Positions 30,859 to 57,955 of a stretch of DNA of 64,000 nt are shown here, piece after piece. Where the stretch lies: positions 123,611 to 187,610 of the forward strand of contig JOAZ01000013.1 of assembly GCA_000720535.1 (NCBI GenBank), in the 5' to 3' direction. Each line of letters begins with the position of its first letter. Position 1 is the first letter of the stretch. The position numbers were made by a program, and so were the translations under genes. This stretch comes from Streptomyces halstedii. GTDB taxonomy: Bacteria > Actinomycetota > Actinomycetes > Streptomycetales > Streptomycetaceae. The notes beneath the pieces were generated by a model, which was given only the letters and a program-made list of their open reading frames with translations, had not been told where the DNA came from and made no database searches.

Positions 30859-30870
30859 CTACGCGCGTTA
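30859..30870. promoter_or_regulatory. Nucleoside-regulon palindrome, site 1 (BMP lipoprotein)
   Basis: CTACGCGCGTTA matches 10 of 12 positions of the palindrome CTACGCGCGTAG shared by five nucleoside-salvage promoters in this window. It lies 61 bp before the start at 30931 and overlaps a -10-like TACGAT at 30869-30874, consistent with repression. Confidence 0.62.
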
Positions 30871-30930
30871 CGATCGCGGCGAAACCAGCGCCGGAAGAGG
30901 CGCTTCGGTCAGGTTTGAAGGAGCCTTCCC

Positions 30931-31989
30931 TTGCGCCGGATCACCAGGATTGCCACCGTGGGCGTCATGTCCGCGGCGCTCGCACTCAGCGTCACCGCGT
31001 GTGGCGAATCGTCGTCCTCGTCCTCGTCGGACACCTCGTCCGACTCCAAGGGCGGCAAGACGGCCATCGCCTACGACATCGGTGGCCGCGGGGACCAGTC
31101 GTTCAACGACGCCGCTTACGCGGGTCTGGTCCGCGCCCAGAAGGAACTCGATGCCAAGGGCACCGAGGCCGAGCCCTCCGACGGCGAGTCGGACGCCGAC
31201 AAGGTGCAGCGCCTCACCGCGCTGGCCCGCGCCGGCAACAACCCGGTCATCGGCGTCGGCTTCGCGTACGCGCCCGCCATCAAGAAGGTCGCGCCGAAGT
31301 TCCCGAAGATCACCTTCGGCATCATCGACGACGCCTCGGTGACCGGCGACAACATCGCCAACATCGTCTTCAACGAGGAGCAGGGCTCCTACCTCGCGGG
31401 TGTCGCCGCCGCCAAGGTCACCAAGACCAAGACGGTCGGCTTCATCGGCGGTGTCGAGACCCCGCTGATCAAGAAGTTCGAGGCCGGCTTCGTGCAGGGC
31501 GTCGCGGACACCGACCCGAAGGTCAAGGTCGTCCCGCAGTACCTCACGCAGCCGCCGAACTTCGACGGCTTCTCCAAGCCGGACCTCGGCAAGGCCGCCG
31601 CCCAGGGCCAGCTCGACAAGGGCGCCGACGTGGTCTACTCGGCCGCCGGTCTGGCCGGTTCCGGTGCCATCGAGGCCGTCTCCAAGGCCGGCAAGTGGAA
31701 CATCGGCGTCGACTCCGACCAGTACAAGCAGGAAGGCCTCTCGGCCTACAAGGAGTCGATCCTGACGTCGGTCACCAAGGACGTCGAGGACTCCGTCTTC
31801 AACCTGATCAAGTCCGTCAAGGACGGCAAGCCCGAGTCCGGCGAGGTCCGTTACGGCCTCGACAAGGACGGCGTCGGCCTGGCGATGTCCAACCCGGCCT
31901 TCACCAAGATGACCGACGTCATCGCCGCCGTGGACAAGGCGAAGAAGGAAATCATCGGCGGCACGATCACCGTCAAGTCCGCCCCGTAA
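30931..31989 (+). CDS. BMP-family nucleoside-binding lipoprotein
   Basis: This is the substrate-binding component of a BmpA/Med-type ABC importer, anchored outside the membrane. The 352-aa protein has a lipoprotein signal ending SVTAC (Cys24), a Ser-rich linker, and a periplasmic-binding fold. Typical stretches are YDIGGRGDQSFNDAAYAGL, GVGFAYAPAI, GFIGGVETPLIKKFEAGF and GADVVYSAAGLAGSGAI. Members characterised elsewhere bind purine nucleosides. The start is TTG, placed by GAAGGAG 8 bases upstream. A nucleoside-regulon palindrome precedes it and a hairpin separates it from the ATPase gene, which would let it be expressed in excess. Confidence 0.89.
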   Translation: MRRITRIATVGVMSAALALSVTACGESSSSSSSDTSSDSKGGKTAIAYDIGGRGDQSFNDAAYAGLVRAQKELDAKGTEAEPSDGESDADKVQRLTALARAGNNPVIGVGFAYAPAIKKVAPKFPKITFGIIDDASVTGDNIANIVFNEEQGSYLAGVAAAKVTKTKTVGFIGGVETPLIKKFEAGFVQGVADTDPKVKVVPQYLTQPPNFDGFSKPDLGKAAAQGQLDKGADVVYSAAGLAGSGAIEAVSKAGKWNIGVDSDQYKQEGLSAYKESILTSVTKDVEDSVFNLIKSVKDGKPESGEVRYGLDKDGVGLAMSNPAFTKMTDVIAAVDKAKKEIIGGTITVKSAP

Positions 31990-32018
31990 CGGTTCCGGTC
32001 GAACGGCTGGTTTCCCGT

Positions 32019-32054
32019 GGGCCCGGAGTGCGCGCCGAGCGTCGCTCCGGGCCC
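32019..32054 (+). terminator. Stem-loop after the BMP lipoprotein gene
   Basis: GGGCCCGGAG (32019-32028) pairs with CTCCGGGCCC (32045-32054) across a 16-base loop, 30 bp after the lipoprotein stop. It could end transcription partially or protect the 3' end. The transporter operon downstream has its own operator. Confidence 0.6.
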
Positions 32055-32224
32055 GTGGGGTGCTCGTCGAAGGACCACCGAGAGCTACCGGAGAAATACC
32101 GAAGTATCCGGAACTCCGAGAGTCAACGAAGAAGTTGTGCCCTTCGCAGTGCCCCCGCTCCGGACGGTCCCGGTCCCGTGTCCCGGACCCCGGTGGTGGC
32201 CCTGAGCTTTACGATTCGGCAGCG

Positions 32225-32236
32225 CTACGCGTGTAG
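32225..32236. promoter_or_regulatory. Nucleoside-regulon palindrome, site 2 (ABC operon)
   Basis: CTACGCGTGTAG differs from the consensus palindrome at one position. Its right end forms the start of a -10-like TAGACA (32234-32239), so a bound repressor would cover the promoter of the ATPase-permease-cdd operon. Confidence 0.66.
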
Positions 32237-32280
32237 ACAGCCCTCAGGCGCGATAACTTCACCCCGCCCCCTCTGCCCCT

Positions 32281-33879
32281 GTGCCCCCGCTCCTGTCCGG
32301 CCAAGGAGAGTGCGTCATCAACGCGTCCAGCAGTCCCCCTGCCGTAGAACTGCACGGCATCACCAAGCGTTTCCCCGGAGTCGTCGCCAACCACGACATC
32401 GGGATCACCGTCCGCAAGGGCACGGTCCACGCCCTGGTCGGAGAGAACGGTGCCGGCAAGTCCACGCTGATGAAGATCCTTTACGGCATGCAGAAGCCGG
32501 ACGAGGGCACCATCGCGGTGGACGGCGAGCAGGTCTCGTTCAACAACCCGGGTGACGCCATCGCGCGCGGCATCGGCATGGTGCACCAGCACTTCATGCT
32601 CGCCGACAACTTCACCGTCCTGGAGAACGTCGTCCTGGGCGGCGAGAAGCTGCACGGCATCGGCGGAGCCGCCCGCAGGAAGATCAAGGAGATCTCCGAC
32701 GCGTACGGCCTCGGCGTGCGGCCCGACGCGCTCGTCGAGGACCTCGGGGTCGCCGACCGCCAGCGCGTGGAGATCCTCAAGGTCCTCTACCGCGGCGCCC
32801 GCATCCTCATCCTGGACGAGCCGACCGCCGTACTGGTCCCGCAGGAGGTCGACGCGCTCTTCGCGAACCTCCGGGAGCTGAAGGCCGAGGGCCTCACCGT
32901 CATCTTCATCTCGCACAAGCTCGGCGAGGTGCTGTCCGTCGCGGACGAGATCACGGTGATCCGCCGCGGTACGACGGTGGGCACCGCCGACCCGGCGAAC
33001 ACCACGACCAAGCAGCTCGCGGAGCTGATGGTCGGCAGCGAACTCCCCTCGCCCGAGACCCGCGAGTCCACGGTGACGGATGTGCCGATGCTGCGCGTCC
33101 AGGGGCTCTCGCTCGGCGCGACGGACCCGGACGGCGTCGTCCGCGACGTGCTGGCCGACGTCGGCTTCACCATCCACAAGGGCGAGGTCCTCGGTATCGC
33201 GGGCGTCGAGGGCAACGGCCAGACCGAGCTGATCGAGGCCCTTGTCGGGATGCGGACCCCGGACGCCGGAGTCCTCACCCTGGACGGCGCCGACATCTCG
33301 CACGCGCCCACCCGCAAGCGGCGCGAGGACGGCATCGGCTACATCCCCGAGGACCGCCACCGGCACGGCGTGCTGCTGGAGGCCCCGCTGTGGGAGAACC
33401 GCATCCTCGGCCACGTCACGGAGAAGCCCAACAGCCGCGGCTTCCTGCTCGACCCCAAGGCGGCCCGCGCCGACACCGAGCGGATCGTGCGCGAGTACGA
33501 CGTCCGCACCCCCGGTATCGAGGTCACCGCGGCCTCGCTGTCCGGCGGCAACCAGCAGAAGCTGATCGTCGGCCGTGAGATGAGCCACCACCCCAAGCTG
33601 CTGATCGCCGCGCACCCCACCCGCGGCGTGGACGTCGGCGCGCAGGCGCAGATCTGGGACCAGATCCGTGACGCCCGCCGCGAAGGGCTCGCCGTCCTGC
33701 TCATCTCCGCGGACCTGGACGAGCTCATCGGGCTCTCCGACACCCTGCGCGTCATGTACCGGGGAAAGCTGGTCGCGGACGCCGACCCCGCCACCATCAC
33801 CCCCGAGGAACTGGGCTCGGCCATGACCGGCGCCGCCGCCGGTCACCTCGAAGCAGCACCGGAGGACGAGGCCCGATGA
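32281..33879 (+). CDS. Nucleoside ABC transporter ATP-binding protein (fused double ATPase)
   Basis: The 532-aa protein has two ATPase halves, as in sugar/nucleoside (RbsA/YufO) ATPases. The first has Walker A GENGAGKST and Walker B ILILDEPTAV near residue 175. The second has a degenerate Walker A-like GVEGNGQTE and an intact signature LSGGNQQK. It drives uptake with the BMP lipoprotein and two permeases. The annotated GTG at 32281 lacks a Shine-Dalgarno. AAGGAGA at about 32302 instead points to a start near 32313-32317, where only GTC and ATC codons are in frame, so a non-canonical start is possible. It overlaps the next gene by 4 bp. Confidence 0.88.
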   Translation: MPPLLSGQGECVINASSSPPAVELHGITKRFPGVVANHDIGITVRKGTVHALVGENGAGKSTLMKILYGMQKPDEGTIAVDGEQVSFNNPGDAIARGIGMVHQHFMLADNFTVLENVVLGGEKLHGIGGAARRKIKEISDAYGLGVRPDALVEDLGVADRQRVEILKVLYRGARILILDEPTAVLVPQEVDALFANLRELKAEGLTVIFISHKLGEVLSVADEITVIRRGTTVGTADPANTTTKQLAELMVGSELPSPETRESTVTDVPMLRVQGLSLGATDPDGVVRDVLADVGFTIHKGEVLGIAGVEGNGQTELIEALVGMRTPDAGVLTLDGADISHAPTRKRREDGIGYIPEDRHRHGVLLEAPLWENRILGHVTEKPNSRGFLLDPKAARADTERIVREYDVRTPGIEVTAASLSGGNQQKLIVGREMSHHPKLLIAAHPTRGVDVGAQAQIWDQIRDARREGLAVLLISADLDELIGLSDTLRVMYRGKLVADADPATITPEELGSAMTGAAAGHLEAAPEDEAR

Positions 33880-34994
33880 AGAAATTCGACAAGGACCGGA
33901 TGATCCTGGGCTTCGCCGGCCCGGTACTCGCCCTGGTCGTCGCGTTCGCGCTCACCACCCTGGTGCTGCTCGCCTCGGGGCGTAACCCGTTCGAGCCGTA
34001 CCGGCTGATGTTCGAGCAGGCGTCGTACGCCGACATCCAGGTCCTGATCATCAACCAGGCCGGTACGTACTACCTCGCCGCCCTCGCGGTCGCGATCGGC
34101 TTCCGGATGAACCTCTTCAACATCGGGGTCGACGGGCAGTACCGCCTCGCCGCGATGATGGCCGCCCTGGTCGGCGCCAGCGTCGATCTGCCCGGACCGC
34201 TCCACATCCTGCTCATCGTCATCGTGGCGATGCTGGTCGGAGCCTTCTGGGCCGGTATCGCGGGCTTCCTCAAGACCACCCGCGGGGTGAGCGAGGTCGT
34301 CGCGACGATCATGCTCAACTCGATCGCGACCTCGCTGATCGCCTGGCTGATCCTGCCGAAGAACTTCGGTGACCAGGCCGCCGGTTCCAACAACCTGACC
34401 ACGGGCGACATCCCCGAGTCGGGCTGGTTCCCCGGCGTCTCGCTGAGCGCCGAGGCGGGCGAGATCTACGGATTCACCTTCGTCGCCGCGGGCTGCGGCC
34501 TCGTCTACTGGTTCGTCCTGAACCGCACCCGGTTCGGCTTCGACCTGCGCGCCACGGGCGCCAGCGAGAGCGCCGCACAGGCCTCCGGTGTGGACGCCAA
34601 GAAGATGGTCCTCACCTCGATGCTCATCTCCGGCGCCGTCGCCGGTCTCGCCGGGATGCCCACGCTGCTGGGCGACACCCACACCTACAGCCTCGACTTC
34701 CCCACCGGTATCGGCTTCACCGGCATCACCATCGCCCTGCTCGGCCGGAACAACCCGCTCGGCATCGCGCTGAGCGCCCTGCTGATCGCCTTCCTCGACA
34801 AGGCGTCCTCCTCGCTCGACCAGTTCGGGTACGAGAAGGAGATCGCCACGATCATGCAGGGCCTCATCGTGATCTCCGTGGTCGTCAGCTACGAACTGGT
34901 CCGGCGCTACGGAACCCGCCGGCAGCAGCAGAAGGTCGGCGAGGAACTCGCCGCCGGCCACGCCCTCACCACCGAGAAGGAGGCGGCCCTGTGA
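33876..34994 (+). CDS. Nucleoside ABC transporter permease 1 (YufP/NupP type)
   Basis: The 372-aa polytopic membrane protein has about nine helices. It carries the BPD_transp_2 features NLFNIGVDGQYRLAAMMAA, GFLKTTRGVSEVVATIMLNSI and RATGASESAAQASGVDAKKM. This family forms the channel of ribose and nucleoside importers. Coupled by ATGA overlaps to the ATPase gene before and the second permease gene after. The cytoplasmic C-terminus is charged (RYGTRRQQQKVGEEL). Confidence 0.88.
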   Translation: MKKFDKDRMILGFAGPVLALVVAFALTTLVLLASGRNPFEPYRLMFEQASYADIQVLIINQAGTYYLAALAVAIGFRMNLFNIGVDGQYRLAAMMAALVGASVDLPGPLHILLIVIVAMLVGAFWAGIAGFLKTTRGVSEVVATIMLNSIATSLIAWLILPKNFGDQAAGSNNLTTGDIPESGWFPGVSLSAEAGEIYGFTFVAAGCGLVYWFVLNRTRFGFDLRATGASESAAQASGVDAKKMVLTSMLISGAVAGLAGMPTLLGDTHTYSLDFPTGIGFTGITIALLGRNNPLGIALSALLIAFLDKASSSLDQFGYEKEIATIMQGLIVISVVVSYELVRRYGTRRQQQKVGEELAAGHALTTEKEAAL

Positions 34995-36256
34995 GCACCA
35001 GCAAAGTCTCCGCCGCTCGCGTCGCCACCCCGAAGGGCGGTGGACGGCGCAGGCTCTCCCTGCCCGTCGTCCTCCTGATCATCGCCGGGGCGCTGGCCCT
35101 GGTCTCGCTGGTCCGCCTCATCAGCGGCGCGGACGACGTGACCTCCGTCGGCCAGGTGCACGGCGCCCTCGAACTCGCCGTGCCGATCGGTCTGGCCGGA
35201 CTCGGCGGCCTGTGGGCCGAGCGGGCCGGTGTCGTCAACATCGGGCTCGAAGGGATGATGGTCCTCGGCACCTGGTTCGGTGCCTGGGCCGGATTCCAGT
35301 GGGGCCCCTGGGTGGGCGTCCTGTTCGGCATCCTCGGCGGCGCGCTCGGCGGGCTGCTGCACGCGGTCATCACGGTCACCTTCGGCGTGAACCACATCGT
35401 CTCCGGTGTGGCGATCAACATCCTCGCCGTCGGCCTCACCCGCTACCTCTCCAACTTCACCTTCGCCGACGCGCCCGGCGGCTCCTCCAAGCAGTCCCCG
35501 CGCATCGACCCGATCGACAAGATCACCATCCCAGGGCTGTCGGACTGGATGCAGGACCTCCAACAACGGCACTGGTTCTTCGTCTCCGACCTCGCCGGCA
35601 TCGTCGGCGGCGTGTTCACGGGTCTGTCGCTGCTCACCGTCGTGGCCCTGCTGCTCATCCCCGTCACCTGGTGGGTGCTCTGGCGCACCGCGTTCGGGCT
35701 GCGGCTCCGCTCCTGCGGGGAGAGCCCGGTGGCCGCCGAGACCCTCGGCGTGAACGTCTACAAGTACAAGTACATCGCCGTGACCATCTCGGGCGGACTG
35801 GCCGGGCTCGGCGGAGCGTTCCTCGCGATCGTGGCGACCGGGATCTACCAGGAGGGCCAGACCGGCGGCCGCGGCTACATCGGTCTCGCCGCGATGATCT
35901 TCGGCAACTGGATGCCGGGCGGCATGGCGCTGGGCGCGGGCCTGTTCGGCTTCACCGACAGCCTCAAGCTGCGCGGCGGCGCCGAGAACGTCCACGCGAT
36001 GCTGCTGCTCCTGGCGATCCTGCTGGTGATCGTCGTCTTCTGGCAGCTGTACCGGAAGAAGTACCTCACCGCGGTGATCTCGGCGGCCGTCTCGGCGCTG
36101 CTGTTCACCTGGTACGCGCTCACCGACCAGGTGCCCAGCCAGTTCGTGGACGCGGCCCCGTACGTCACCACGCTGCTGGTACTCGCCCTGTCCGCCCAGC
36201 GATTGCGCATGCCGAAGGCGGACGGCGTGCCGTACCGCAAGGGCGAGGGCAAGTGA
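34991..36256 (+). CDS. Nucleoside ABC transporter permease 2 (YufQ/NupQ type)
   Basis: The 421-aa polytopic permease pairs with the preceding one. GLWAERAGVVNIGLEGMM, HAVITVTFGVNHIVSGVAIN, GRGYIGLAAMIFGNWMPGG and LRSCGESPVAAETLGVNVYK are family-specific. GTGA overlaps join it to the upstream permease gene and to cdd, so transport and cytidine deamination are co-translated. Confidence 0.88.
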   Translation: MSTSKVSAARVATPKGGGRRRLSLPVVLLIIAGALALVSLVRLISGADDVTSVGQVHGALELAVPIGLAGLGGLWAERAGVVNIGLEGMMVLGTWFGAWAGFQWGPWVGVLFGILGGALGGLLHAVITVTFGVNHIVSGVAINILAVGLTRYLSNFTFADAPGGSSKQSPRIDPIDKITIPGLSDWMQDLQQRHWFFVSDLAGIVGGVFTGLSLLTVVALLLIPVTWWVLWRTAFGLRLRSCGESPVAAETLGVNVYKYKYIAVTISGGLAGLGGAFLAIVATGIYQEGQTGGRGYIGLAAMIFGNWMPGGMALGAGLFGFTDSLKLRGGAENVHAMLLLLAILLVIVVFWQLYRKKYLTAVISAAVSALLFTWYALTDQVPSQFVDAAPYVTTLLVLALSAQRLRMPKADGVPYRKGEGK

Positions 36257-36666
36257 CCGGGGACGCGGCGGCGGCCGGCCGGGACGTCGACTGGGAGGCC
36301 CTGCGCGCGGCCGCCCGGGAGGCCATGTCCCGGGCGTACGCCCCGTACTCGGGCTTCAGGGTCGGTGTCGCCGCGCTCGCCGACGACGGCCGCACCGTCG
36401 TCGGCTGCAACGTCGAGAACGCCAGTTACGGCGTGGGCCTGTGCGCCGAGTGCGGGCTGGTCTCCCAGCTCGCGGCCACGGGCGGCGGCCGGCTGACCCA
36501 CTTCGTCTGCGTGGACGGCGAGGGCGCGCCCCTCGTCCCGTGCGGGCGGTGCCGTCAACTGCTGTACGAGTTCGGGGGACCGGACCTGGTCCTGGAGACC
36601 CCCGACGGCTTCCGCACCCTCGACGCGATGCTGCCGCAGGCCTTCGGGCCCCAGCACCTCGGCTGA
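36253..36666 (+). CDS. cdd: Cytidine deaminase
   Basis: The 137-aa homotetrameric-type zinc enzyme deaminates cytidine and deoxycytidine to uridine and deoxyuridine. Zinc and catalytic motifs are NVENASYGVGLCAE (Cys and catalytic Glu) and VPCGRCRQ (two Cys). GTG at 36253 overlaps the permease stop by 4 bp and gives the normal family length. Last gene of the transporter operon; a strong terminator hairpin follows at 36673. Confidence 0.92.
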   Translation: MTGDAAAAGRDVDWEALRAAAREAMSRAYAPYSGFRVGVAALADDGRTVVGCNVENASYGVGLCAECGLVSQLAATGGGRLTHFVCVDGEGAPLVPCGRCRQLLYEFGGPDLVLETPDGFRTLDAMLPQAFGPQHLG

Positions 36667-36672
36667 CGTCCG

Positions 36673-36746: not shown

Positions 36747-36762
36747 CTCTATGCGCGTAGAG
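36747..36762. promoter_or_regulatory. Nucleoside-regulon palindrome, site 3 (deoA)
   Basis: CTCTATGCGCGTAGAG is a 16-bp palindrome with one mismatch, centred on the shared core. Its right side contributes to a -10-like TAGAGT at 36758-36763. It lies 49 bp before the deoA start, giving a leader of about 40 bases. Confidence 0.68.
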
Positions 36763-36810
36763 TCACAGGGGACTCGTGCGTACGCACCCGGCCGGAAGGA
36801 CTCCCAGGAC

Positions 36811-38088
36811 ATGGACGCCATCTCCGTCATCCGCACCAAGCGGGACCGAGGCGAACTCAGCCCCGAGCAGATCGACTGGGTGATCGACGCCTACACCCGC
36901 GGCGAGGTCGCCGACGAGCAGATGTCCGCGCTGGCCATGGCGATCCTGCTGAACGGCATGAACCGCACCGAGATCGCCCGCTGGACCGCCGCGATGATCG
37001 CCTCCGGCGAGCGGATGAGCTTCGGCGCGCTGTCGCGTCCCACCACCGACAAGCACTCCACCGGCGGCGTCGGCGACAAGATCACCCTGCCGCTCGCCCC
37101 GCTGGTCGCCGCCTGCGGTGCCGCCGTACCGCAGCTCAGCGGCCGGGGCCTCGGCCACACGGGCGGCACCCTCGACAAGCTGGAGTCCGTCCCCGGCTGG
37201 CGGGCCCTGCTGTCCAACGCCGAGATGCTGGACGTCCTGGACACCACCGGCGCCGTGATCTGCGCGGCGGGCGACGGGCTCGCCCCCGCCGACAAGAAGC
37301 TCTACGCGCTCCGCGACGTCACCGGGACCGTCGAGGCGATCCCGCTCATCGCCAGCTCGATCATGTCGAAGAAGATCGCCGAGGGCACCGGCGCGCTCGT
37401 CCTGGACGTCAAGGTCGGCTCCGGCGCCTTCATGAAGACCATCGAGGACGCCCGCGAACTGGCCTCCACCATGGTCGCGCTGGGCACCGACAGCGGGGTG
37501 CGGACCGTCGCCCTGCTCACCGACATGTCCACCCCGCTCGGCCTCACCGCGGGCAACGCCCTGGAGGTACGCGAGTCCGTCGAGGTGCTGGCGGGCGGCG
37601 GCCCCAAGGACGTCGTCGAGCTGACCCTCGCACTCGCCCGCGAGATGCTGGACGCCGCCGGGCTCAAGGACGCCGACCCGGAGAAGGCCCTGGCCGACGG
37701 CTCCGCCATGGACGTGTGGCGCCGCATGATCTCCGCCCAGGGCGGCGACCCGGACGCCGCGCTGCCCGTCGCCCGCGAGCAGCACGTGATCACCGCGCCC
37801 TCCTCCGGGGTGCTGACCCGCCTGGACGCCTACGACGTCGGCGTCGCCGCCTGGCGCCTCGGCGCCGGCCGGGCCCGCAAGGAGGACCCGGTGCAGGCGG
37901 GCGCGGGCGTCGAACTGCACGCCAAGCCCGGCGACACCGTGACCGAGGGCCAGCCCCTGCTGACCCTGCACACGGACACCCCGGAGAAGTTCGCGTACGC
38001 GCTCCAGGCGCTGCCCGGCTCGTACGACATCGCCCCGGGCGGCACGCCGTTCGCCGCCACGCCGGTCGTCCGGGAGCGCATCGCCTGA
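36811..38088 (+). CDS. deoA: Thymidine phosphorylase
   Basis: The 425-aa enzyme splits thymidine or deoxyuridine with phosphate to base and deoxyribose-1-phosphate. Family stretches include ARWTAAMIASGERMSF, DKHSTGGVGDKITLPLAPLV, GRGLGHTGGTLDKLES, DVKVGSGAFMKT and the C-terminal pyrimidine-phosphorylase domain from about 340. ATG 36811 is chosen because the conserved N-terminus (MDAISVIRTKRDRGELSPEQ) starts there, with GGAAGGA upstream. It has its own operator and is insulated by terminators on both sides. Its product feeds phosphopentomutase and deoC. Confidence 0.93.
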   Translation: MDAISVIRTKRDRGELSPEQIDWVIDAYTRGEVADEQMSALAMAILLNGMNRTEIARWTAAMIASGERMSFGALSRPTTDKHSTGGVGDKITLPLAPLVAACGAAVPQLSGRGLGHTGGTLDKLESVPGWRALLSNAEMLDVLDTTGAVICAAGDGLAPADKKLYALRDVTGTVEAIPLIASSIMSKKIAEGTGALVLDVKVGSGAFMKTIEDARELASTMVALGTDSGVRTVALLTDMSTPLGLTAGNALEVRESVEVLAGGGPKDVVELTLALAREMLDAAGLKDADPEKALADGSAMDVWRRMISAQGGDPDAALPVAREQHVITAPSSGVLTRLDAYDVGVAAWRLGAGRARKEDPVQAGAGVELHAKPGDTVTEGQPLLTLHTDTPEKFAYALQALPGSYDIAPGGTPFAATPVVRERIA

Positions 38089-46545: not shown

Positions 46546-46557
46546 CTACGCGCGTAG
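46546..46557. promoter_or_regulatory. Nucleoside-regulon palindrome, site 4 (add)
   Basis: CTACGCGCGTAG is the perfect 12-bp form. It lies 16 bp before the add start codon; a -10-like TAGAGT follows at 46563-46568, 5 bases before the ATG, so add is probably leaderless and the site sits in the promoter spacer. Confidence 0.7.
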
Positions 46558-46573
46558 GCGTTAGAGTGCCCAG

Positions 46574-47728
46574 ATGACCAGCCAGACCCCGAACGCTCCC
46601 GGTCCCGACCAGATCCGCCGCGCCCCCAAGGTGCTGCTCCACGACCACCTCGACGGGGGCCTGCGTCCCGGCACCGTCGTCGAACTGGCCGCGGCGCTGG
46701 GCTACGACGCGCTGCCCGAGACGGAGGCGGACAAGCTCGGCGTCTGGTTCCGCGAGGCGGCCGACTCCGGTTCGCTGGAACGCTACCTGGAGACCTTCGC
46801 CCACACCTGCGCCGTCATGCAGACCCGTGACGCGCTGTTCCGGGTGGCCGCCGAGTGCGCCGAGGACCTCGCCGAGGACGGTGTCGTCTACGCCGAGGTG
46901 CGGTACGCCCCCGAGCAGCACCTCACCGCCGGACTGACCCTCGAAGAGGTCGTCGAGGCGGTCAACGACGGCTTCCGCGAGGGTGAGCGCAGGGCCCGCG
47001 CCAACGGCCACCGCATCCGGGTCGGCGCCCTCCTGACGGCGATGCGGCACGCGGCCCGCGCCCTGGAGATCGCCGAACTCGCCAACGAATACCGCGACCG
47101 GGGTGTCGTCGGCTTCGACATCGCCGGCGCGGAGGCGGGCTACCCTCCCACCCGCCACCTCGACGCCTTCGAGTACCTCAAGCGGGAGAACAACCACTTC
47201 ACCATCCACGCGGGCGAGGCCTTCGGTCTGCCGTCGATCTGGCAGGCACTCCAGTGGTGCGGTGCCGACCGGCTCGGCCACGGCGTCCGCATCATCGACG
47301 ACATCACCACCGCCGACGACGGCACCGTGACGCTCGGCCGCCTCGCCTCCTACGTACGCGACAAGCGCGTCCCGCTGGAGCTCTGCCCGACCTCCAACCT
47401 CCAGACCGGGGCCGCCGCCTCGTACGCCGAGCACCCCATCGGGCTGCTGCGGAAGCTGCATTTCCGCGTCACCGTGAACACGGACAACCGGCTGATGAGC
47501 GGGACCAGCATGAGCCGTGAATTCGAGAAGCTGACCGAGGCTTTCGGATACACGCTCGACGACATGCAGTGGTTCACCGTCAATGCGATGAAATCAGCGT
47601 TCATTCCTTTCGATGAACGTCTGGCGATGATCAACGACGTCGTGAAGCCCGGTTACGCGGAGCTGAAGTCGGAGTGGCTTTTCCGTCAGACGGCCACCAC
47701 CAGGGGTTCTTCGGGCGCGTCCGCCTGA
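46574..47728 (+). CDS. add: Adenosine deaminase
   Basis: The 384-aa zinc enzyme deaminates adenosine and deoxyadenosine to inosine forms. Metal and catalytic motifs are [10 protein letters not shown] (His-x-His), [10 protein letters not shown] (His and Glu), DRLGHGVRI and [10 protein letters not shown] (Asp). No ribosome site precedes the ATG at 46574, consistent with a leaderless message from the -10 element just upstream. It is a single gene under the nucleoside palindrome. Confidence 0.93.
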
Positions 47729-49325: not shown

Positions 49326-49961
49326 TCACGGCGCGGCCCTCAGGGTCGGTACCTCGGTCGGCCGGCTCTTCGTCTGTGACGTGCACAGATAGTCCCGGGG
49401 GGCGTACGCCCCGGGCCCGCCGAGCAGCACCGAGCCCCCGCGGTCGACCGCCACCTCGCTCTCGGCGTACGAGCACACCAGCTGGGCCAGCGCCTCCGCC
49501 GGGAGGTCCTCCGGCTGCTCGCTGAGGCGCAGGGCGCCCTTCGGATCGCCCCGGCGGGCATCGGCGACCCGCAGCTTCGCCGGGACGAGCGTGGAGAACC
49601 CCGCACGGCGCTCCTCGGCGGACGGCGCCTGCCGCAACTGGGCCAGGAGCGCCCGCGCCACCCGCAGCCGGTCGGACCCCGACTCGTCGACCTCGACCGT
49701 GCGCTCCACCGTCGCCAGCTGCGAGGCGCACACCAGATAGACCTGGACCGTCAGGCTCTCCGGCGGCTGGTTGCCGGTGTCCGTGCCGGACGTCCGGCAC
49801 GGCACCCGGGACGGCGCCGCTCCCGCGTCCACCGGTACCGAGGTGCTCCGGATCCCGCACCCCGCCGCCAGCGCCACACAGGCCACGGCCGCGGCGAACG
49901 CGGTCGCCCGCCCGGGGCGCGCGTCCCGGCGCGTGCCGTACGCGTGCTCGCTGCGCATCAC
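49326..49961 (-). CDS. Lipoprotein of the afsQ operon
   Basis: The 211-aa protein has a lipoprotein signal ending LAAGC (Cys35). An exterior domain with a pair of Cys (VPCRTSG, YLVCASQ) resembling GerMN-like folds in its VQVYLVCASQLATVERTV strand pattern follows. The gene overlaps the sensor kinase stop by 4 bp and is the third gene of the operon. In S. coelicolor a lipoprotein gene follows afsQ2 in the same way (recollection). It may modulate signal input to AfsQ2. Confidence 0.8.
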   Translation of the reverse strand: MMRSEHAYGTRRDARPGRATAFAAAVACVALAAGCGIRSTSVPVDAGAAPSRVPCRTSGTDTGNQPPESLTVQVYLVCASQLATVERTVEVDESGSDRLRVARALLAQLRQAPSAEERRAGFSTLVPAKLRVADARRGDPKGALRLSEQPEDLPAEALAQLVCSYAESEVAVDRGGSVLLGGPGAYAPRDYLCTSQTKSRPTEVPTLRAAP

Positions 49962-51517
49962 TTCGCGCCGTCCTTCCCGTTCGCGTCGTCCCCCGGCCCG
50001 TCCCGGTCGTCGTCCCGGTCCTCGTCCGCGGGGGCGTCGAGCAGCCGGCCCGCGTCACGGGGCAGCCGCAGGAGGAACACCGCGCCGTCGCCGTCCGGCG
50101 AGTTGAAGGCCGTGATGTCGCCGCCGTGGATGTGGGCGTTCTCCATGGCGATCGACAGGCCCAGACCGCTGCCCTCCGAGCGCGGACGGGAGGCACTCGC
50201 CTTGTAGAAGCGGTCGAAGACGTGCGGCAGCACCTCTTCCGGGACGCCCGGCCCGTGGTCGCGCACCTCGATGGTCAGCTCGTCGTCGTCGGCCCGCACC
50301 GCCACCCGGACCGGCGAACCGCCGTGCTTGAGCGCGTTGCCGATGAGGTTCGCCAGGATGACGTCCAGCCGGCGCGGATCGAGCCGCACCATCAGCCCGC
50401 GCTCGGCGTCGAGATCGACCGCGTCCAGCCACGCGCGGGCGTCGATGCAGGCGGTCACCTGGTCCGCCACGTCCACCGTGTCCAGGACCAGCCGGGCCGT
50501 CCCCGCGTCGAAACGGGTGACCTCCATGAGGTTCTCGACCAGGTCGTTCAGCCGCCGCGTCTCACTGACCACGAGGTGCACGGCGGGCGCGATCATCGGA
50601 TCGAGGCTGTCCGCCTCGTCCTCCAGCACCTCCGCGACCGCGGTGATCGCGGTGAGCGGGGTGCGCAGCTCGTGCGACATGTCGGCGACGAACCGGCGGC
50701 TCGACTCCTCCCGGGCGCTCATGTCCGCGACCTTCTTCTCCAGCGAGCCGGCCGCCCTGTTGAACGTACGGGAGAGATCGGCCAGTTCGTCGGTGCCCGA
50801 GACCACGAGACGGGTGTCCAGCTTGCCCTCGCCGAGCTTCCGGGCGGCGTCGCCCAGCCGCTGCACGGGCCGCAGCACGGTCGTCGCCGCCGCCTGGGCG
50901 AGCAGCGCCGAACCGATCAGCGCCAGCGCGGTCGCGATACCCAGGGACCAGGCCAGCGAGTTGAGGTCCTGGCGCTCCTGGTCGAGGGACTTGAGCATGT
51001 ATCCGGTCGGGCCGCCGCCGATGATCTTCGTACCGGCGACCAGATAGGGCGTGCCGCCGATACTCGTACGCTGCCAGAACAGGTGGTACTCGAAGGAGTC
51101 GCCCTTCTTCAACGGCTGCTTCCGGCTCACCTGCTTCCGCAACGAGTCGGGCACGTCCTGCGCGGTGAACGCGTCGAGGTCCGAGGAGCCGACGACCGGC
51201 TTGCCGTCGTGGGAGCCGACCAGCAGCACGTGGTAACCGGGGCTGCTGCTCGCCATCTGCTCGGCGGCGTGCCGCAGTTCGGCCGCCGTCAGCTGCGTCG
51301 GCAGCGACGCCGCCCGGTTCTGCATCTGCCGGCGGAAGTCACCCAGCGCCGCGTCCTGCGTACGGGTCAGCACCGCCTCGCGGTTGAGCCAGTACGCGAT
51401 GCCCGACGCGGACACCGCGGCCACCAGGGCCACCAGCGCGAACACGATCAGCAGCCGCAGTCGCAGGCTGGTCCAGCGAAGACCCGCGAGGAAGGAACGC
51501 TTCGCGGCACCGCTCAC
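49958..51517 (-). CDS. afsQ2: AfsQ2 sensor histidine kinase
   Basis: The 519-aa membrane kinase has helices near 20-42 and 190-212 flanking an extracellular sensor of about 145 residues. HAMP follows (about 213-265), then HisKA with His282 (ADMSHELRTPLTA) and a C-terminal ATPase with N, G1 and G2 boxes (ANLIGNALKHGG, DHGPGVPEE, GSGLGLS). It phosphorylates the response regulator encoded upstream, with which it overlaps by 4 bp. Assignment to AfsQ2 rests on gene order with a lipoprotein gene, AfsQ1 and divergent SigQ. The AfsQ system controls antibiotic production and nitrogen (glutamate) response in S. coelicolor. Confidence 0.9.
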   Translation of the reverse strand: MSGAAKRSFLAGLRWTSLRLRLLIVFALVALVAAVSASGIAYWLNREAVLTRTQDAALGDFRRQMQNRAASLPTQLTAAELRHAAEQMASSSPGYHVLLVGSHDGKPVVGSSDLDAFTAQDVPDSLRKQVSRKQPLKKGDSFEYHLFWQRTSIGGTPYLVAGTKIIGGGPTGYMLKSLDQERQDLNSLAWSLGIATALALIGSALLAQAAATTVLRPVQRLGDAARKLGEGKLDTRLVVSGTDELADLSRTFNRAAGSLEKKVADMSAREESSRRFVADMSHELRTPLTAITAVAEVLEDEADSLDPMIAPAVHLVVSETRRLNDLVENLMEVTRFDAGTARLVLDTVDVADQVTACIDARAWLDAVDLDAERGLMVRLDPRRLDVILANLIGNALKHGGSPVRVAVRADDDELTIEVRDHGPGVPEEVLPHVFDRFYKASASRPRSEGSGLGLSIAMENAHIHGGDITAFNSPDGDGAVFLLRLPRDAGRLLDAPADEDRDDDRDGPGDDANGKDGAK

Positions 51518-52191
51518 TGAGGCGAGTCCAGCCGGTAGCCGACACCGCGCACGGTACGGATCAGGGTCGGCGAGGACGGCACGTCCTCCACCTTGGCGCG
51601 CAGCCGTTGGACACAGGCGTCCACCAGGCGCGAGTCACCCAGGTAGTCGTGTTCCCACACCAGCCGCAGCAGTTGCTGCCGCGACAGCGCCTGACCGGGC
51701 CTGCGGCTCAGCTCCAGCAGGAGCCTCAGCTCGGTCGGCGTGAGCTGGAGGTCCTCGCCGTTCTTCGTGACGGTCATCGCGGAACGGTCGATGACCACAC
51801 TGCCGAAGGTCGCGGAGTCGGTGGACTCCCGCTCGCCCCGGCGCAGCACCGCGCGGATACGCGCGTCGAGCACCCGGCCCTGCACGGGTTTCACCACGTA
51901 GTCGTCGGCCCCCGACTCCAGACCCACCACGACGTCGATGTCGTCGCTGCGGGCGGTCAGCAGGATGATCGGCAACTGGTCGGTGCGCCGGATACGGCGG
52001 CAGACCTCGAAACCGTCGATCCCGGGCAGCATCACATCCAGCACGACCAGGTCGGGCCGCTGCTCGCGGAGCAGCTCCAGGCCGTCCTCTCCCGTCGCCG
52101 CGGTGGCCACACGGTGGCCCTGGCGAGACAGCGAGAGTTCGAGGGCCGTGCGGATGGCGTCGTCGTCCTCGATCAGCAACAGGAAAGGCAC
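51514..52191 (-). CDS. afsQ1: AfsQ1 response regulator (OmpR type)
   Basis: The 225-aa protein has a receiver domain (LLLIEDDDAIRTALELSLSR; phospho-Asp52 in VLDVMLPG) and a C-terminal winged HTH (LTPTELRLLLELSRRPGQ, RLVDACVQRLRAKVED). The GTG at 52191 gives 225 aa, the length I recall for S. coelicolor AfsQ1. An in-frame ATG at 52200 would add three residues. No Shine-Dalgarno is visible. Its known target motif, GTnAC-N6-GTnAC, occurs in the divergent sigQ gap. Confidence 0.92.
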   Translation of the reverse strand: MPFLLLIEDDDAIRTALELSLSRQGHRVATAATGEDGLELLREQRPDLVVLDVMLPGIDGFEVCRRIRRTDQLPIILLTARSDDIDVVVGLESGADDYVVKPVQGRVLDARIRAVLRRGERESTDSATFGSVVIDRSAMTVTKNGEDLQLTPTELRLLLELSRRPGQALSRQQLLRLVWEHDYLGDSRLVDACVQRLRAKVEDVPSSPTLIRTVRGVGYRLDSPQ

Positions 52192-52295
52192 GGAGGCCAT
52201 TGTGGCCCATAGGGGTGTCACAGTTCGACAGCGCTCCCCACTTGAGCGGTCACCGGGGGCGCGCCGACGGGCCGCGCACCACCCTGACCTGCCTT

Positions 52296-52311
52296 GTGAC
52301 AGGCCTGTGAC
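52296..52311. promoter_or_regulatory. AfsQ1 box upstream of sigQ
   Basis: GTGAC at 52296-52300 and 52307-52311 are separated by AGGCCT, an exact match to the published AfsQ1 site GTnAC-N6-GTnAC. It lies about 84 bp before sigQ and 105 bp from afsQ1, so phosphorylated AfsQ1 probably activates sigQ here. Confidence 0.82.
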
Positions 52312-52394
52312 AGTCGGGGGACAGGGCCATGAAGTCGCCCCGGCAAGCTCGGTGGCACATGGAAGAGACGAACTCCACCGATGGGGGGCGCGAG

Positions 52395-53153
52395 ATGAAC
52401 GCACTGCACAGCACCACCTCAAGCGCAGTTGTCACGCGCCTCCACGACACCGGTCGGAGCACCGAGAAGTCCGGCGCCGGGGGAGGGCGGGGGTGCTTCC
52501 GCGGTGCCGGGCGTCAGCACTCGTCGCACCTGACGATGGTTGACGTGCCCACGGGGGAACACGGGGGCAACGGGGGACACGCGTGCGGGGAGGCCACGGG
52601 GGAGCGGAAGCCCCTGGCGCGGACCGAGGACGCCGAAGCGGCGTTCACGGCCTACGTCCAGGAGCGCCGCGCCTCCCTGTACGCGACCGCCTACCACCTG
52701 ACCGGAGACCGGTTCGAGGCCGAGGACCTGCTCCAGAGCGCCCTCTTCTCGACCTACCGGGCATGGGACCGGATCACGGACAAGGCGGCGCTCGGCGGCT
52801 ACCTCCGCCGCACCATGACCAACCTGCACATCAGCGCGTGGCGCAGGCGCAAGCTGAACGAATACCCGACCGAGGAGCTGCCGGAGACGGTGGGCGACAC
52901 GGACGCGATGCGCGGCACGGAGCTGCGGGCGGTGCTGTGGCAGGCGCTCGCACGGCTGCCCGAACTCCAGCGCACCATGCTGGTCCTGCGGTACTACGAG
53001 GGCCGCACGGACCCGGAGATCGCGTCGATACTCGGCATCAGTGTCGGCACGGTGAAGTCGAGCATCTGGCGGTCACTCCGCCGGCTCCGCGAGGACCAGG
53101 TCCTCAGCTTCGGCCGTGACGAGGAGGAGTCCTTCGGCGAGTTGGTGGCCTGA
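52395..53153 (+). CDS. sigQ: SigQ RNA polymerase sigma factor
   Basis: The 252-aa SigE-family ECF factor has a non-conserved N-terminus of about 75 residues. Region 2 follows (FTAYVQERRASLYATAYHLT, EAEDLLQSALFSTYRAWDRI), then region 4 (LARLPELQRTMLVLRYYEGR, ASILGISVGTVKSSIWRSLR). ATG 52395 follows GGGGGGCGCGAG. In S. coelicolor SigQ is encoded divergently from afsQ1 and antagonises AfsQ1-dependent antibiotic activation. An AfsQ1 box precedes it and a perfect hairpin terminator follows. Confidence 0.9.
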   Translation: MNALHSTTSSAVVTRLHDTGRSTEKSGAGGGRGCFRGAGRQHSSHLTMVDVPTGEHGGNGGHACGEATGERKPLARTEDAEAAFTAYVQERRASLYATAYHLTGDRFEAEDLLQSALFSTYRAWDRITDKAALGGYLRRTMTNLHISAWRRRKLNEYPTEELPETVGDTDAMRGTELRAVLWQALARLPELQRTMLVLRYYEGRTDPEIASILGISVGTVKSSIWRSLRRLREDQVLSFGRDEEESFGELVA

Positions 53154-53924: not shown

Positions 53925-54053
53925 AGAACAGAAGTGTGAGGCATGGACCCGCGCAGGCGATCCCCGGGAGGTGACGTTCGTATCGAGCATCACACCTCAA
54001 CTACTCTGCGAGTACGTACGACTACTGGATCCGGCTCGATCAGGTGGGAAAAC

Positions 54054-54522: not shown

Positions 54523-54538
54523 CGGTCGCGGGAGCGCC

Positions 54539-54572
54539 CGCGGGGCCCGCCCCGGGAAGGGCGGGCCCCGCG
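54539..54572. terminator. Perfect 14-bp hairpin terminator
   Basis: CGCGGGGCCCGCCC (54539-54552) pairs with GGGCGGGCCCCGCG (54559-54572) over a 6-base loop. It separates the secreted-protein gene from the convergent aldehyde dehydrogenase operon. Confidence 0.84.
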
Positions 54573-54587
54573 GTTCGCGTGCGTCCG

Positions 54588-55541
54588 TCAGTACGAGGAC
54601 CCGGAGGCCCCCAGCGCGCCCGTCGGGTGCCAGACCGTCTTGGTCTCCAGGAAGGCCGTCAGCCGGTGCGTACCCGGATCGGCCGACCAGTCGGATCCGT
54701 CCACAGCCTGTGGACGAGCGGCGTCCTTCGCCTCCTTCTCGGGGCGGTGGCGGGAGACGGACGGGCGGAGCACCCGCTTCAGGTTCTCCGCGGCGGCCGC
54801 CTCCAGCTCCTTCGCCAGCTCCGCGTCGCCCGCGGCCCCCGTGAGGTCGATGCCGTTGACGTCCTGGTGCGAGGCGAGCGGCGCCGCCAGCTCCGCCGTA
54901 CGGCCCGACAGGATGTTCACCACGCCGCCCGGCAGGTCCGACGTGGCCAGCACCTCGCCCAGCGAGAGCGCGGGCAGCGGGGCGTCGGCCGAGGCGACGA
55001 CGACCGCCGTGTTGCCGGTGGCGATCACCGGGGCGAGGACGGAGACCAGGCCGAGGAGTGAGGACCCCTGGGGCGCCAGCACCGCGACCACACCGGTGGG
55101 TTCGGGCGTGGAGAGGTTGAAGAACGGGCCCGCGACCGGGTTGGCCCCGCCCACGACCTGGCCGATCTTGTCGGTCCAGCCCGCGTACCAGACCCAGCGG
55201 TCGATCGCCGCGTCCACGACGGCCGCCGCCTTGGACTTCGACAGGCCCTCGGCGTCCGCCACCTCCCGGACGAACTGCTCGCGGCGGCCCTCCAGCATCT
55301 CCGCGATCCGGTAGAGGATCTGGCCGCGGTTGTACGCGGTCGCCCCCGACCAGTCGCCGAACGCCTTGCGGGCGGCCACGACCGCGTCACGCGCGTCCTT
55401 GCGGGAGGACTGGGGAACGTTCGCCAGCCACTTGCCCTTCGGGTCCGTCACCTCGTACACCCGGCCGCTCTCGGAGCGGGGGAACTTTCCCCCGACGTAC
55501 AGCTTGTAGGTCTTGAAGACGCTCAGTCGCCCGTCAGACAT
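54588..55541 (-). CDS. Truncated aldehyde dehydrogenase-like protein without catalytic Cys
   Basis: The 317-aa protein covers only the first two-thirds of an ALDH (usual length about 480). The N-terminal oligomerisation arm and NAD-binding Rossmann half are present (GVVAVLAPQGSSLLGLVSVL, ATGNTAVVVAS), up to about residue 255. The NxGQxC nucleophile region and ELGGK Glu motif are absent; the tail (RPSVSRHRPEKEAKDAARP) is unrelated and low-complexity. It overlaps the full-length ALDH gene upstream by 8 bp and is probably co-translated. It may be a regulatory or structural partner of that enzyme. No frameshift remnant of the missing domain was seen downstream. Confidence 0.82.
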   Translation of the reverse strand: MSDGRLSVFKTYKLYVGGKFPRSESGRVYEVTDPKGKWLANVPQSSRKDARDAVVAARKAFGDWSGATAYNRGQILYRIAEMLEGRREQFVREVADAEGLSKSKAAAVVDAAIDRWVWYAGWTDKIGQVVGGANPVAGPFFNLSTPEPTGVVAVLAPQGSSLLGLVSVLAPVIATGNTAVVVASADAPLPALSLGEVLATSDLPGGVVNILSGRTAELAAPLASHQDVNGIDLTGAAGDAELAKELEAAAAENLKRVLRPSVSRHRPEKEAKDAARPQAVDGSDWSADPGTHRLTAFLETKTVWHPTGALGASGSSY

Positions 55542-56970
55542 CGAGGTAGGCCTCCAGACCGTGACGGCCGCCCTCGCGGCCGTAGCCCGACTCCTTGTAT
55601 CCGCCGAACGGCGAGGTCGGGTCGAACTTGTTGAACGTGTTGGCCCACACCACACCGGCGCGGAGCTTGTTCGCCACCGCGAGGATGCGGGAGCCCTTCT
55701 CCGTCCAGATGCCCGCCGAGAGGCCGTACTGGCTGTTGTTGGCCTTGGCGACCGCCTCGTCCGGCGTACGGAAGGTGAGCACCGACAGCACCGGGCCGAA
55801 GATCTCGTCGCGGGCGACCGTGTGCGCCTGGGTGACGCCGGTGAAGAGCGTCGGGGCGAACCAGTAGCCGGTGGACGGCAGTTCGCAGGGAGCCGACCAG
55901 CGCTCGGCGCCCTCCGCCTCGCCGGTCTCCACCAGCGCGGTGATCCGGGCGAGCTGCTCGGCGGAGTTGATCGCGCCGATGTCGGTGTTCTTGTCCAGCG
56001 GGTCGCCCAGGCGCAGCGTGGTCAGCCGGCGCTTGAGGGCGTGCAGCACCTCGTCGTGGACCGACTCCTGGACGAGGAGCCGGGAGCCCGCGCAGCAGAC
56101 CTGGCCCTGGTTGAAGAAGATGCCGGTGACGATGCCCTCGACGGCCTGGTCGACGGGCGCGTCGTCGAAGACGATGTTGGCGCCCTTGCCGCCCAGTTCG
56201 AGCGTGGCCCGCTTGTCGGTGCCCGCGATCTGGCGGGCGATGGCCTTGCCGACGGCGGTCGAGCCGGTGAAGGCGACCTTGTTCACGTCCGGGTGCGTGA
56301 CGAGCGCGGAGCCCGCGTCGCCGTAACCGGTGAGGATGTTGACGACGCCCTTGGGCAGGCCCGCCTGGCGGCAGACGTCGGCGAAGAACAGCGCGGAGAG
56401 CGGCGTCGTCTCGGCGGGCTTCAGCACCACCGTGTTGCCGGTGGCGAGGGCCGGGGCGATCTTCCACGCGAGCATCAGGAGCGGGAAGTTCCAGGGGATG
56501 ATCTGCCCGGCCACACCCAGCGGACGCGGGTTCGCCCCGTATCCGGCGTGGTCCAGCTTGTCGGCCCAGCCCGCGTAGTAGAAGAAGTGCGCGGCGACCA
56601 GCGGGAGGTCCGCGTCGCGGGTCTCCCTGATCGGCTTGCCGTTGTCCAGGGTCTCCAGGACGGCCAGCTCGCGGGAGCGCTCCTGGATGATCCGGGCGAT
56701 CCGGAAGAGGTACTTGGCGCGCTCGGAGCCGGGCAGCGCCGACCACTTCTCGAACGCCTTGCGGGCGGCCTTCACGGCCCGGTCCACGTCCTCGGCGCCC
56801 GCCCGCGCGACCTCGGAGAGCACCTCCTCGGTGGACGGGCTGAGGGTCTTGAAGACCTTGCCGTCGGCGGCCTCGGTGAACTCGCCGTCGATGAACAGCC
56901 CGTACGAGGGGGCGATGTCCACGACGGAGCGGGACTCCGGCGCCGGTGCGTACTCGAATGCAGATGCCAT
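55534..56970 (-). CDS. Aldehyde dehydrogenase
   Basis: The 478-aa NAD(P)-dependent ALDH is complete: IPWNFPLLMLAWKIAPALATG, GSTAVGKAI, LELGGKGANIVF (catalytic Glu) and FFNQGQVCCAGSR (nucleophile Cys). It ends with the family's FGGYKESGYGREGG. It starts 6 bp after deoC on the same strand. DeoC yields acetaldehyde from deoxyribose-5-phosphate, so oxidation of acetaldehyde to acetate is the most economical role. Substrate is inferred from context. Confidence 0.9.
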   Translation of the reverse strand: MASAFEYAPAPESRSVVDIAPSYGLFIDGEFTEAADGKVFKTLSPSTEEVLSEVARAGAEDVDRAVKAARKAFEKWSALPGSERAKYLFRIARIIQERSRELAVLETLDNGKPIRETRDADLPLVAAHFFYYAGWADKLDHAGYGANPRPLGVAGQIIPWNFPLLMLAWKIAPALATGNTVVLKPAETTPLSALFFADVCRQAGLPKGVVNILTGYGDAGSALVTHPDVNKVAFTGSTAVGKAIARQIAGTDKRATLELGGKGANIVFDDAPVDQAVEGIVTGIFFNQGQVCCAGSRLLVQESVHDEVLHALKRRLTTLRLGDPLDKNTDIGAINSAEQLARITALVETGEAEGAERWSAPCELPSTGYWFAPTLFTGVTQAHTVARDEIFGPVLSVLTFRTPDEAVAKANNSQYGLSAGIWTEKGSRILAVANKLRAGVVWANTFNKFDPTSPFGGYKESGYGREGGRHGLEAYLDV

Positions 56971-56976
56971 GGGGTA

Positions 56977-57924
56977 TCAGTCCACCGTCACGTAATCGGG
57001 GCCGGAGTAACGGCCGGTGCTGAGCTTCTGGCGCTGCATCAGCAGGTCGTTCAGCAGGCTGGAGGCGCCGAAGCGGAACCAGTGGTTGTCCAGCCAGTCC
57101 TCACCGGCGGTCTCGTTCACCAGGACGAGGAACTTGATCGCGTCCTTCGTGGTCCGGATGCCGCCCGCCGGCTTCACCCCGACCTGGACGCCCGTCTGCT
57201 CCCGGAAGTCGCGTACGGCCTCCAGCATGAGCAGGGTGTTCGCCGGGGTGGCGTTCGTCGCGACCTTGCCGGTCGAGGTCTTGATGAAGTCCGCGCCCGC
57301 CAGCATCCCGAGCCAGGAGGCCCGCCGGATGTTGTCGTACGTGGACAGCTCGCCGGTCTCGAAGATCACCTTCAGCCGGGCCTGGCCGCACTCCGCCTTC
57401 ACGGCGACGATCTCCTCGTACACCTTCAGGTAGCGGCCGGACAGGAAGGCGCCCCGGTCGATCACCATGTCGATCTCGTCGGCCCCGGCCGCCACCGCGT
57501 CGCGGACGTCCGCGAGCTTGACGGCCGGCGCCGCGCGCCCGGCGGGGAAGGCCGTCGCCACGGACGCCACCTTCACGCCCGAACCGGCCAGCGCGGCGAC
57601 GGCGGTCGCCGCCATGTCGGGATAGACGCAGACCGCGGCGGTGCGCGGGGTCGTACGGTCGAGCGGGTCGGGGTTGACGGCCTTGGCGGCGAGAGCCCGG
57701 ACCTTGCCCGGGGTGTCCGCGCCTTCCAGGGTCGTCAGGTCGATCATCGAGATGGCGAGATCGATGGCGTACGCCTTGGCGGTCGTCTTGATCGACCGCG
57801 TACCGAGAGCGGCCGCGCGCGCTTCGAGCCCGACGGTGTCGACGCCGGGAAGCCCGTGCAGGAAGCGGCGCAGCGCACTGTCGGACGCGGTCGCGTCGGC
57901 GAGCGGGGGTGCAGTGGTGGGCAT
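56977..57924 (-). CDS. deoC: Deoxyribose-phosphate aldolase
   Basis: The 315-aa class I aldolase cleaves 2-deoxyribose-5-phosphate to glyceraldehyde-3-phosphate and acetaldehyde. The Schiff-base Lys lies in GADFIKTSTGK, and VKPAGGIR carries the second Lys. It is longer than E. coli DeoC (about 260) at the N-terminus. ATG 57924 is used; GTG 57930, two codons earlier and very close to the -10, is possible for a leaderless message. The nucleoside palindrome lies 20 bp upstream. It is the first gene of an operon with two ALDH genes. Confidence 0.92.
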   Translation of the reverse strand: MPTTAPPLADATASDSALRRFLHGLPGVDTVGLEARAAALGTRSIKTTAKAYAIDLAISMIDLTTLEGADTPGKVRALAAKAVNPDPLDRTTPRTAAVCVYPDMAATAVAALAGSGVKVASVATAFPAGRAAPAVKLADVRDAVAAGADEIDMVIDRGAFLSGRYLKVYEEIVAVKAECGQARLKVIFETGELSTYDNIRRASWLGMLAGADFIKTSTGKVATNATPANTLLMLEAVRDFREQTGVQVGVKPAGGIRTTKDAIKFLVLVNETAGEDWLDNHWFRFGASSLLNDLLMQRQKLSTGRYSGPDYVTVD

Positions 57925-57943
57925 GGTCACCAGAGGAGCATAT

Positions 57944-57955
57944 CTACGCGCGTAG
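57944..57955. promoter_or_regulatory. Nucleoside-regulon palindrome, site 5 (deoC operon)
   Basis: CTACGCGCGTAG in perfect form. On the minus strand its end starts a -10-like TAGATA (57946-57941), so binding would mask the deoC promoter. Confidence 0.7.

Follow-up and report, generated by a model that had tools for sequence, protein, structure and literature searches.

A conserved palindrome as predicted operator of a nucleoside-salvage regulon in Streptomyces, with a DeoR-family protein as candidate repressor

Do the nucleoside uptake and breakdown genes found in a 64,000-nucleotide stretch of the Streptomyces halstedii genome (contig JOAZ01000013.1; the whole stretch is called the window below) answer to one regulator, and if so, to which? 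The question is raised by a short palindrome, CTACGCGCGTAG, which stands before several of their transcription units and which a sequence-only reading of the window had attributed to a common repressor. The comparative analysis reported here supports the idea of a regulon: the palindrome is shared by several units for nucleoside uptake and breakdown, and it is conserved in the cluster as well as at two unlinked loci. We consider it probable that the palindrome is the operator of one dimeric repressor of a shared nucleoside-salvage regulon, with a DeoR-family protein as the most likely repressor; that a single repressor stands behind all the sites is what we infer from comparing sequences. The genes and predicted operators of the window, including those of an ATP-binding cassette (ABC) transporter, are as follows.

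30859..30870, plus strand: operator CTACGCGCGTTA before the BMP lipoprotein gene, a two-mismatch variant (conservation, footprint)
30931..31989, plus strand: BMP/PnrA-like substrate-binding lipoprotein, start codon approximate (Pfam PF02608)
32225..32236, plus strand: operator CTACGCGTGTAG before the ABC-cdd operon (window match, conservation)
32281..33879, plus strand: ABC transporter ATPase (Pfam PF00005)
33876..36256, plus strand: two ABC permeases, 33876-34994 and 34991-36256 (Pfam PF02653)
36253..36666, plus strand: open frame of a probable cytidine deaminase, which we take to be cdd from its sequence motifs
36749..36760, plus strand: operator CTATGCGCGTAG before deoA (window match, partial conservation)
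36811..38088, plus strand: deoA, thymidine phosphorylase (Pfam pyrimidine nucleoside phosphorylase; NCBIfam NF004490 above cutoff)
46546..46557, plus strand: exact operator before add (conservation, footprint)
46574..47728, plus strand: add, adenosine deaminase, probably leaderless (Pfam PF00962)
57944..57955, minus strand: exact operator before the deoC-aldehyde dehydrogenase operon (conservation, footprint)
56977..57930, minus strand: deoC, deoxyribose-phosphate aldolase (Pfam PF01791 on 56977-57909), with a probable leaderless GTG start at 57930 suggested by the footprint
55534..56970, minus strand: aldehyde dehydrogenase (Pfam PF00171), adjoining deoC at a median gap of 9 bp in 39 genomes
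62318..63958, minus strand: phosphohexomutase-family gene (Pfam PGM_PMM domains)

The earlier assignments of the BMP, ABC, deoA, add, deoC and aldehyde dehydrogenase genes are all borne out by Pfam, and that of deoA also by NCBIfam.

Palindrome sites and their conservation

The five sites named by the sequence-only reading were found where it had placed them, at 30859 (two mismatches), 32225 and 36749 (one mismatch each), and 46546 and 57944 (none). At up to one mismatch, CTACGCGCGTAG has four matches in the window against 0.16 expected, a count reached in 0 of 100 shuffles and by 0 of 119 permuted palindromes of the same composition. At up to two mismatches no excess was seen in the window, with six matches against 4.35 expected and the same number reached in 30 of 100 shuffles and by 44 of the 119 permuted palindromes; the sixth match, at 51857, lies within a response-regulator gene. 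Taken as a single match, the BMP site is not statistically significant, and we regard it as real because every named locus (74/74) and every complete genome (29/29) compared at this promoter carries the same two-mismatch variant.

We regard such conservation as the main proof of the regulon, a reading that is well supported. It was followed in two sets, one comprising the best 80 of a larger number of Streptomyces loci (the named loci) and the other 40 genomes of low contig number (the complete genomes, 39.5 kb from each) taken from 119 Streptomyces with a match to the DeoR-family protein. In the second set a genome enters the denominator only if the gene could be located in the stretch and its start aligned; overlap in species between the two sets is possible, and their counts are not summed. 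The site before the purine nucleoside phosphorylase (PNP) gene, which lies beyond the window, is exact in 40 of 40 complete genomes and that before add in 37 of 37, while the deoC site is exact in 38 of 39 and carries one mismatch in the remaining one. The site of the ABC operon is present in 73 of 76 named loci (not 74 of 77, the row of L100 with its wrapped upstream stretch having been dropped) and in 23 of 29 complete genomes, 14 times exactly and nine times with one mismatch. The deoA site was found in 52 of 80 named loci and 15 of 31 complete genomes (not 16 of 32, as a wrapped upstream stretch of G038 had caught the add site and was dropped). The expectation that the sites would recur at orthologous promoters has thus held in Streptomyces, as it does in other members of the family, with deoA as the weak case.

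Control genes of the named loci carried no match at up to two mismatches upstream of the first permease (0/80), M20 (0/70) or the sigma factor (0/69). The exceptions among the complete genomes were exact matches at M20 (1/26) and FADox (1/40); the gene g45710 scores 33/36 on account of the intergenic DNA that it has in common with the divergently oriented add, and the afsQ2-like kinase gene has two-mismatch matches in 14/40, which correspond to the coding-sequence match at 51857. Permuted palindromes at up to one mismatch were found on average at less than 1% of the same promoters; the largest figure for any one of them was 27%, at one gene (perm1). The conserved sites share the extended form TCTACGCGCGTAGA, and most copies of the palindrome have twofold symmetry; promoter-specific deviations are kept, namely GCGTTA (BMP), GCGTTG (nucleotidase), GCGGAG (permease) and CTATGC (deoA), and a fixed deviation per promoter suggests tuned affinity or overlap with the promoter. 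As a side observation, the region between add and deoC (window 49958-53153) holds histidine kinase, response-regulator and sigma-factor genes, which in our view resemble the AfsQ2/AfsQ1/SigQ locus of S. coelicolor.

The remarks of the sequence-only reading on -10-like hexamers next to the palindromes hold in general and needed refinement in two cases. The hexamer is TACGAT at BMP (30869-30874), where it overlaps the right end of the palindrome and where relatives have TACGAT, TAATGT and similar sequences according to the footprints, and TAGAGT at deoA (36758-36763). At add the footprint places TAGAGT (46562-46567) after a 4-bp gap, and at deoC it favours TATGCT (57942-57937), 1 bp past the palindrome, over the TAGATA proposed before; at PNP it gives TACNCT, 12 bp past the palindrome. 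Only 6 or 7 bases separate this conserved -10 from the start codon in add, deoC and PNP (6 nt in the case of the ATG of add), and for this reason their mRNAs are probably leaderless (window 46562-46574 and 57942-57928; L016 about 1048-1033). The palindromes overlap the -10 or sit just upstream of it, in the core promoter, and this geometry suggests repression: a dimeric transcription factor bound to the palindrome would block RNA polymerase at the core promoter.

Sites beyond the window and limits of the family

The source genome comprises 7.74 Mb in 105 contigs, with the window at the end of contig C13. Scanned at up to one mismatch, it has 22 places matching the palindrome, three of them exactly, and the random scatter that would have spoken against the sequence-only reading was not seen: 10 of the 22, among them all three exact ones, precede genes connected with nucleosides, nucleotides or nucleobases. 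These are add, deoC, PNP, the ABC operon, deoA, two genes of the secreted 5'-nucleotidase family, an NCS2 permease, a secreted nuclease-like protein (LTD/Exo_endo_phos) and purS; they are presumed targets, some of the sites lying in divergent regions or near uncertain starts. Seven of the remaining 12 places are inside reading frames, and five are near other genes, i.e. a GDSL hydrolase, a gene that we take to be rpoB-like, two GH25 muramidases and an integrase fragment. The one-mismatch sites upstream of the two muramidase genes are at L022 about 2531-2560 and L024 about 2527 (G000:C33:63030 and 63048; C17:366426), and one of these upstream regions holds a second partial copy of the motif about 21 bp further.

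The third exact site in the genome, C17:1061, is located upstream of PNP (an NCBIfam equivalog). In all 40 complete relatives, the phosphohexomutase-family gene that ends the window has PNP as its neighbour on the same strand, at a gap of 43-1434 bp (median 210). Contig C17 appears to continue C13, and the phosphohexomutase-family gene is probably cotranscribed with PNP from the operator at G000:C17:1061, outside the window.

Two loci unlinked to the cluster were followed in relatives. The nucleotidase site is present in 29 of 30 loci (26 with one mismatch and three with two; the remaining locus has a partial match), these loci being 30 of 31 places found, own genome included, three of them relatives of 57-58% identity. 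For the NCS2 permease, 30 of 31 genomes, own genome included, contributed one locus each, and all 30 have the site. Permuted palindromes at up to one mismatch average less than 0.2% at these two promoters (highest 10%); one of them reaches 87% at NCS2 at up to two mismatches, and the one-mismatch figures are the usable ones.

A further 20 places were opened, 15 in family members and five outside the family. Six of them have exact sites before purNH or purSQ: purS-purQ in L413 (by Pfam), and the purN-purH region in L419 and L422-L425 (relatives of genus codes g103 and g104), the latter by Pfam for L423 and, for the other four, by neighbouring genes or a resemblance of the N-terminal sequences. 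Through the purN-purH sites, some members of the family may have salvage control linked with the de novo synthesis of purines. The extra exact site of L420 belongs to add itself (Pfam), and the remaining family places opened are near secreted or unclear proteins or within a frame. A second adenosine deaminase has the exact motif within its first codons in L412 (about 3065-3083; Pfam) and in L415 (about 2992-3010; similarity).

The motif appears to be a property of one family, which we call the Streptomyces family after the named Streptomyces of the locus set. In the family sample the exact motif is present in 60 of 61 genomes and 16 of 17 genera; the one without it, G318, has two-mismatch sites at PNP and BMP and a one-mismatch site at add. 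At up to two mismatches, a site is present in other genera of the family at PNP (6/6), add (5/5) and BMP (5/5). The class sample includes 16 Streptomyces with 59 exact places in all, and 55 of these are no more than 50 kb from deoR, the DeoR-family gene discussed below (two on the strength of an inferred contig order); for the reversed control these 16 genomes yield eight places. When the 400 bp upstream of the genes were searched in part of 30 chosen genomes outside the family, no site was found at up to one mismatch at PNP orthologues (0/22; two-mismatch sites in 2/22, at 338 and 361 bp), or at up to two mismatches at add (0/23) and BMP (0/13). Among the 181 non-Streptomyces genomes of the class sample, seven have the exact motif, at nine places in all, and no nucleoside gene was recognised by eye among the reading frames at the five of these nine that were opened (three from G204 and one from each of G224 and G274).

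The candidate regulator and competing explanations

The sequence-only reading had seen no regulator in the window, and rightly so; the candidate lies just past the contig end. It possesses the HTH_DeoR (PF08220) and DeoRC (PF00455) domains, both above the gathering scores, and therefore belongs to the DeoR family. Its candidacy rests on linkage to PNP, co-occurrence and conservation: all 40 complete relatives have the gene on the upstream side of PNP, 1727-18324 bp away (median 2444), it is present in 119 of 121 Streptomyces (the two without it being 79% and 91% complete genomes) and in 61 of 61 genomes and 17 of 17 genera of the family sample, and 58 of its first 60 residues are invariant in 41 sequences. 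We put the chance that this protein, whose gene is some 2.4 kb away from the PNP operator, is the regulator at about even, and no other single protein seems more likely; its signal would be a sugar phosphate, e.g. deoxyribose- or ribose-phosphate, by analogy with the family.

Several observations weigh against our interpretation. The deoA gene is a weak member, its site being kept in about half of the genomes. The genomic count of 22 at up to one mismatch compares with 15 for a reversed control, which is no clear excess, and therefore it is placement and conservation that carry the case. The motif is absent from the promoter of deoR itself (0/40 genomes), and autoregulation through it was rejected. 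A DeoR homologue (E<=1e-50) is found in 15 of 181 non-Streptomyces genomes of the class sample, of which only one has the exact motif, at an unrelated place, and several homologues outside the family stand, as judged by eye, beside sugar ABC transporter or aldose-epimerase-like genes. The DeoR-family protein SCO4920 is presumably the orthologue of the candidate. A network study from 2010 puts SCO4920 in a module enriched in sigma factors, not in nucleoside genes (PMC3224704), and the passages that mention it there and in a second paper name no nucleoside targets (PMC3224704, PMC4848846).

The most serious competing explanation, which we rate somewhat below an even chance, accepts the operator and the regulon and assigns them to another, unlinked protein of the LacI, IclR, GntR or another family, perhaps one that senses purines, while DeoR controls something else. 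A LacI-, IclR- or GntR-type factor is made more likely by the pur sites, i.e. the one-mismatch site at purS and the exact ones before purNH or purSQ, and the lack of the motif at deoR and near its homologues outside the family points the same way. The constancy of DeoR near PNP and throughout the family, with its invariant DNA-binding part, argues for the linked candidate, and a profile scan of the source genome, with 26 matches at E<=10, had the known sites at the top of its list and no strong site at any regulator gene. The scan did return an IclR-family gene with a weak motif about 100-250 bp upstream (L453 about 3770; G000:C15:61767); at an E-value of 1.86, about chance level, it is a lead only.

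The other two explanations concern the palindrome itself. It is unlikely to be an activator site or a promoter element: its position between -35 and -10 at varying distance, and the participation of its right end in the -10 of BMP, would fit such a role, but its twofold symmetry and a placement ranging from overlap with the -10 to 12 bp upstream suit a repressor better, and a promoter element should turn up before many genes, whereas the palindrome is restricted to a functional class. Chance resemblance in GC-rich DNA is hardly credible as the source of the five sites. The window count at two mismatches does equal expectation, and the genomic count at one mismatch is near that of the reversed control, but the sites are nearly invariant at orthologous promoters while their flanks diverge, and permuted palindromes behave otherwise at one mismatch; for BMP, ABC, add, deoC and PNP, chance is rejected by the conservation in named loci and complete genomes.

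Related systems and implications

If the sites are operators of a common repressor, as we favour, that protein would govern a nucleoside salvage and catabolism regulon common to the Streptomyces family. Induction would call up secreted nucleotidases, then uptake by the BMP and ABC proteins, deamination (cdd, add) and phosphorolysis (deoA, PNP); the route would end through the phosphomutase in deoC and the aldehyde dehydrogenase, with the NCS2 permease serving for bases. The regulon would work like a deo regulon, and the kind of system is familiar. The DeoR regulon of E. coli comprises the deo operon, nupG and tsx, and it likewise places nucleoside uptake, phosphorylases and deoxyribose-phosphate aldolase under one repressor with palindromic operators; the Streptomyces candidate has the same two Pfam domains. 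The two differ in that the E. coli operator is the 16-bp TGTTAGAATTCTAACA and not TCTACGCGCGTAGA, and in that add, PNP, nucleotidases and the NCS2 permease are included here, in unlinked units. With E. coli DeoR the candidate shares 27% identity over 215 residues, and it scores 72.3 against a cutoff of 244 bits with the NCBIfam DeoR equivalog, so that by this model it is not the orthologue of E. coli DeoR.

Other known systems share single traits with the predicted regulon. CytR of E. coli, a LacI-family protein acting with CRP, also covers cdd, the deo genes and nucleoside transport; an arrangement of that sort was not seen here. The PurR regulons (of the LacI-type in E. coli, and of the Bacillus type) resemble it in the sites before pur genes in some relatives, whereas the predicted regulon is centred on salvage and breakdown rather than on de novo synthesis, and a PurR-like protein was not identified. 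Bacillus thuringiensis has NupR, described as a repressor-type regulator of nucleoside transport; it belongs to the GntR/HutC family and to another phylum (PMC9430930). In the literature searched, with subscription journals mostly outside the search, we found no description of a nucleoside-salvage regulon in Streptomyces, and a search for the letters of the motif gave no title on Streptomyces regulation among the matches listed.

Nucleosides are a main nutrient freed by lysing Streptomyces mycelium, and the same pools feed antibiotic production. In a cell-death context, the adenosine deaminase SCO4901 is reported to be more abundant in S. coelicolor (PMC7244524). With a nearly invariant operator and a named candidate repressor the control is directly testable, and a nucleoside-responsive promoter part would follow if it were confirmed. 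More tentatively, and in our view less likely than not, a single repressor of the family may join the scavenging of extracellular nucleic acids (nuclease, nucleotidases and possibly the GH25 muramidases), the import and breakdown of nucleosides, nucleobase transport and, in some members of the family, de novo purine synthesis; if this were true, the recycling of dead mycelium would be coupled to purine supply through one nearly invariant operator.

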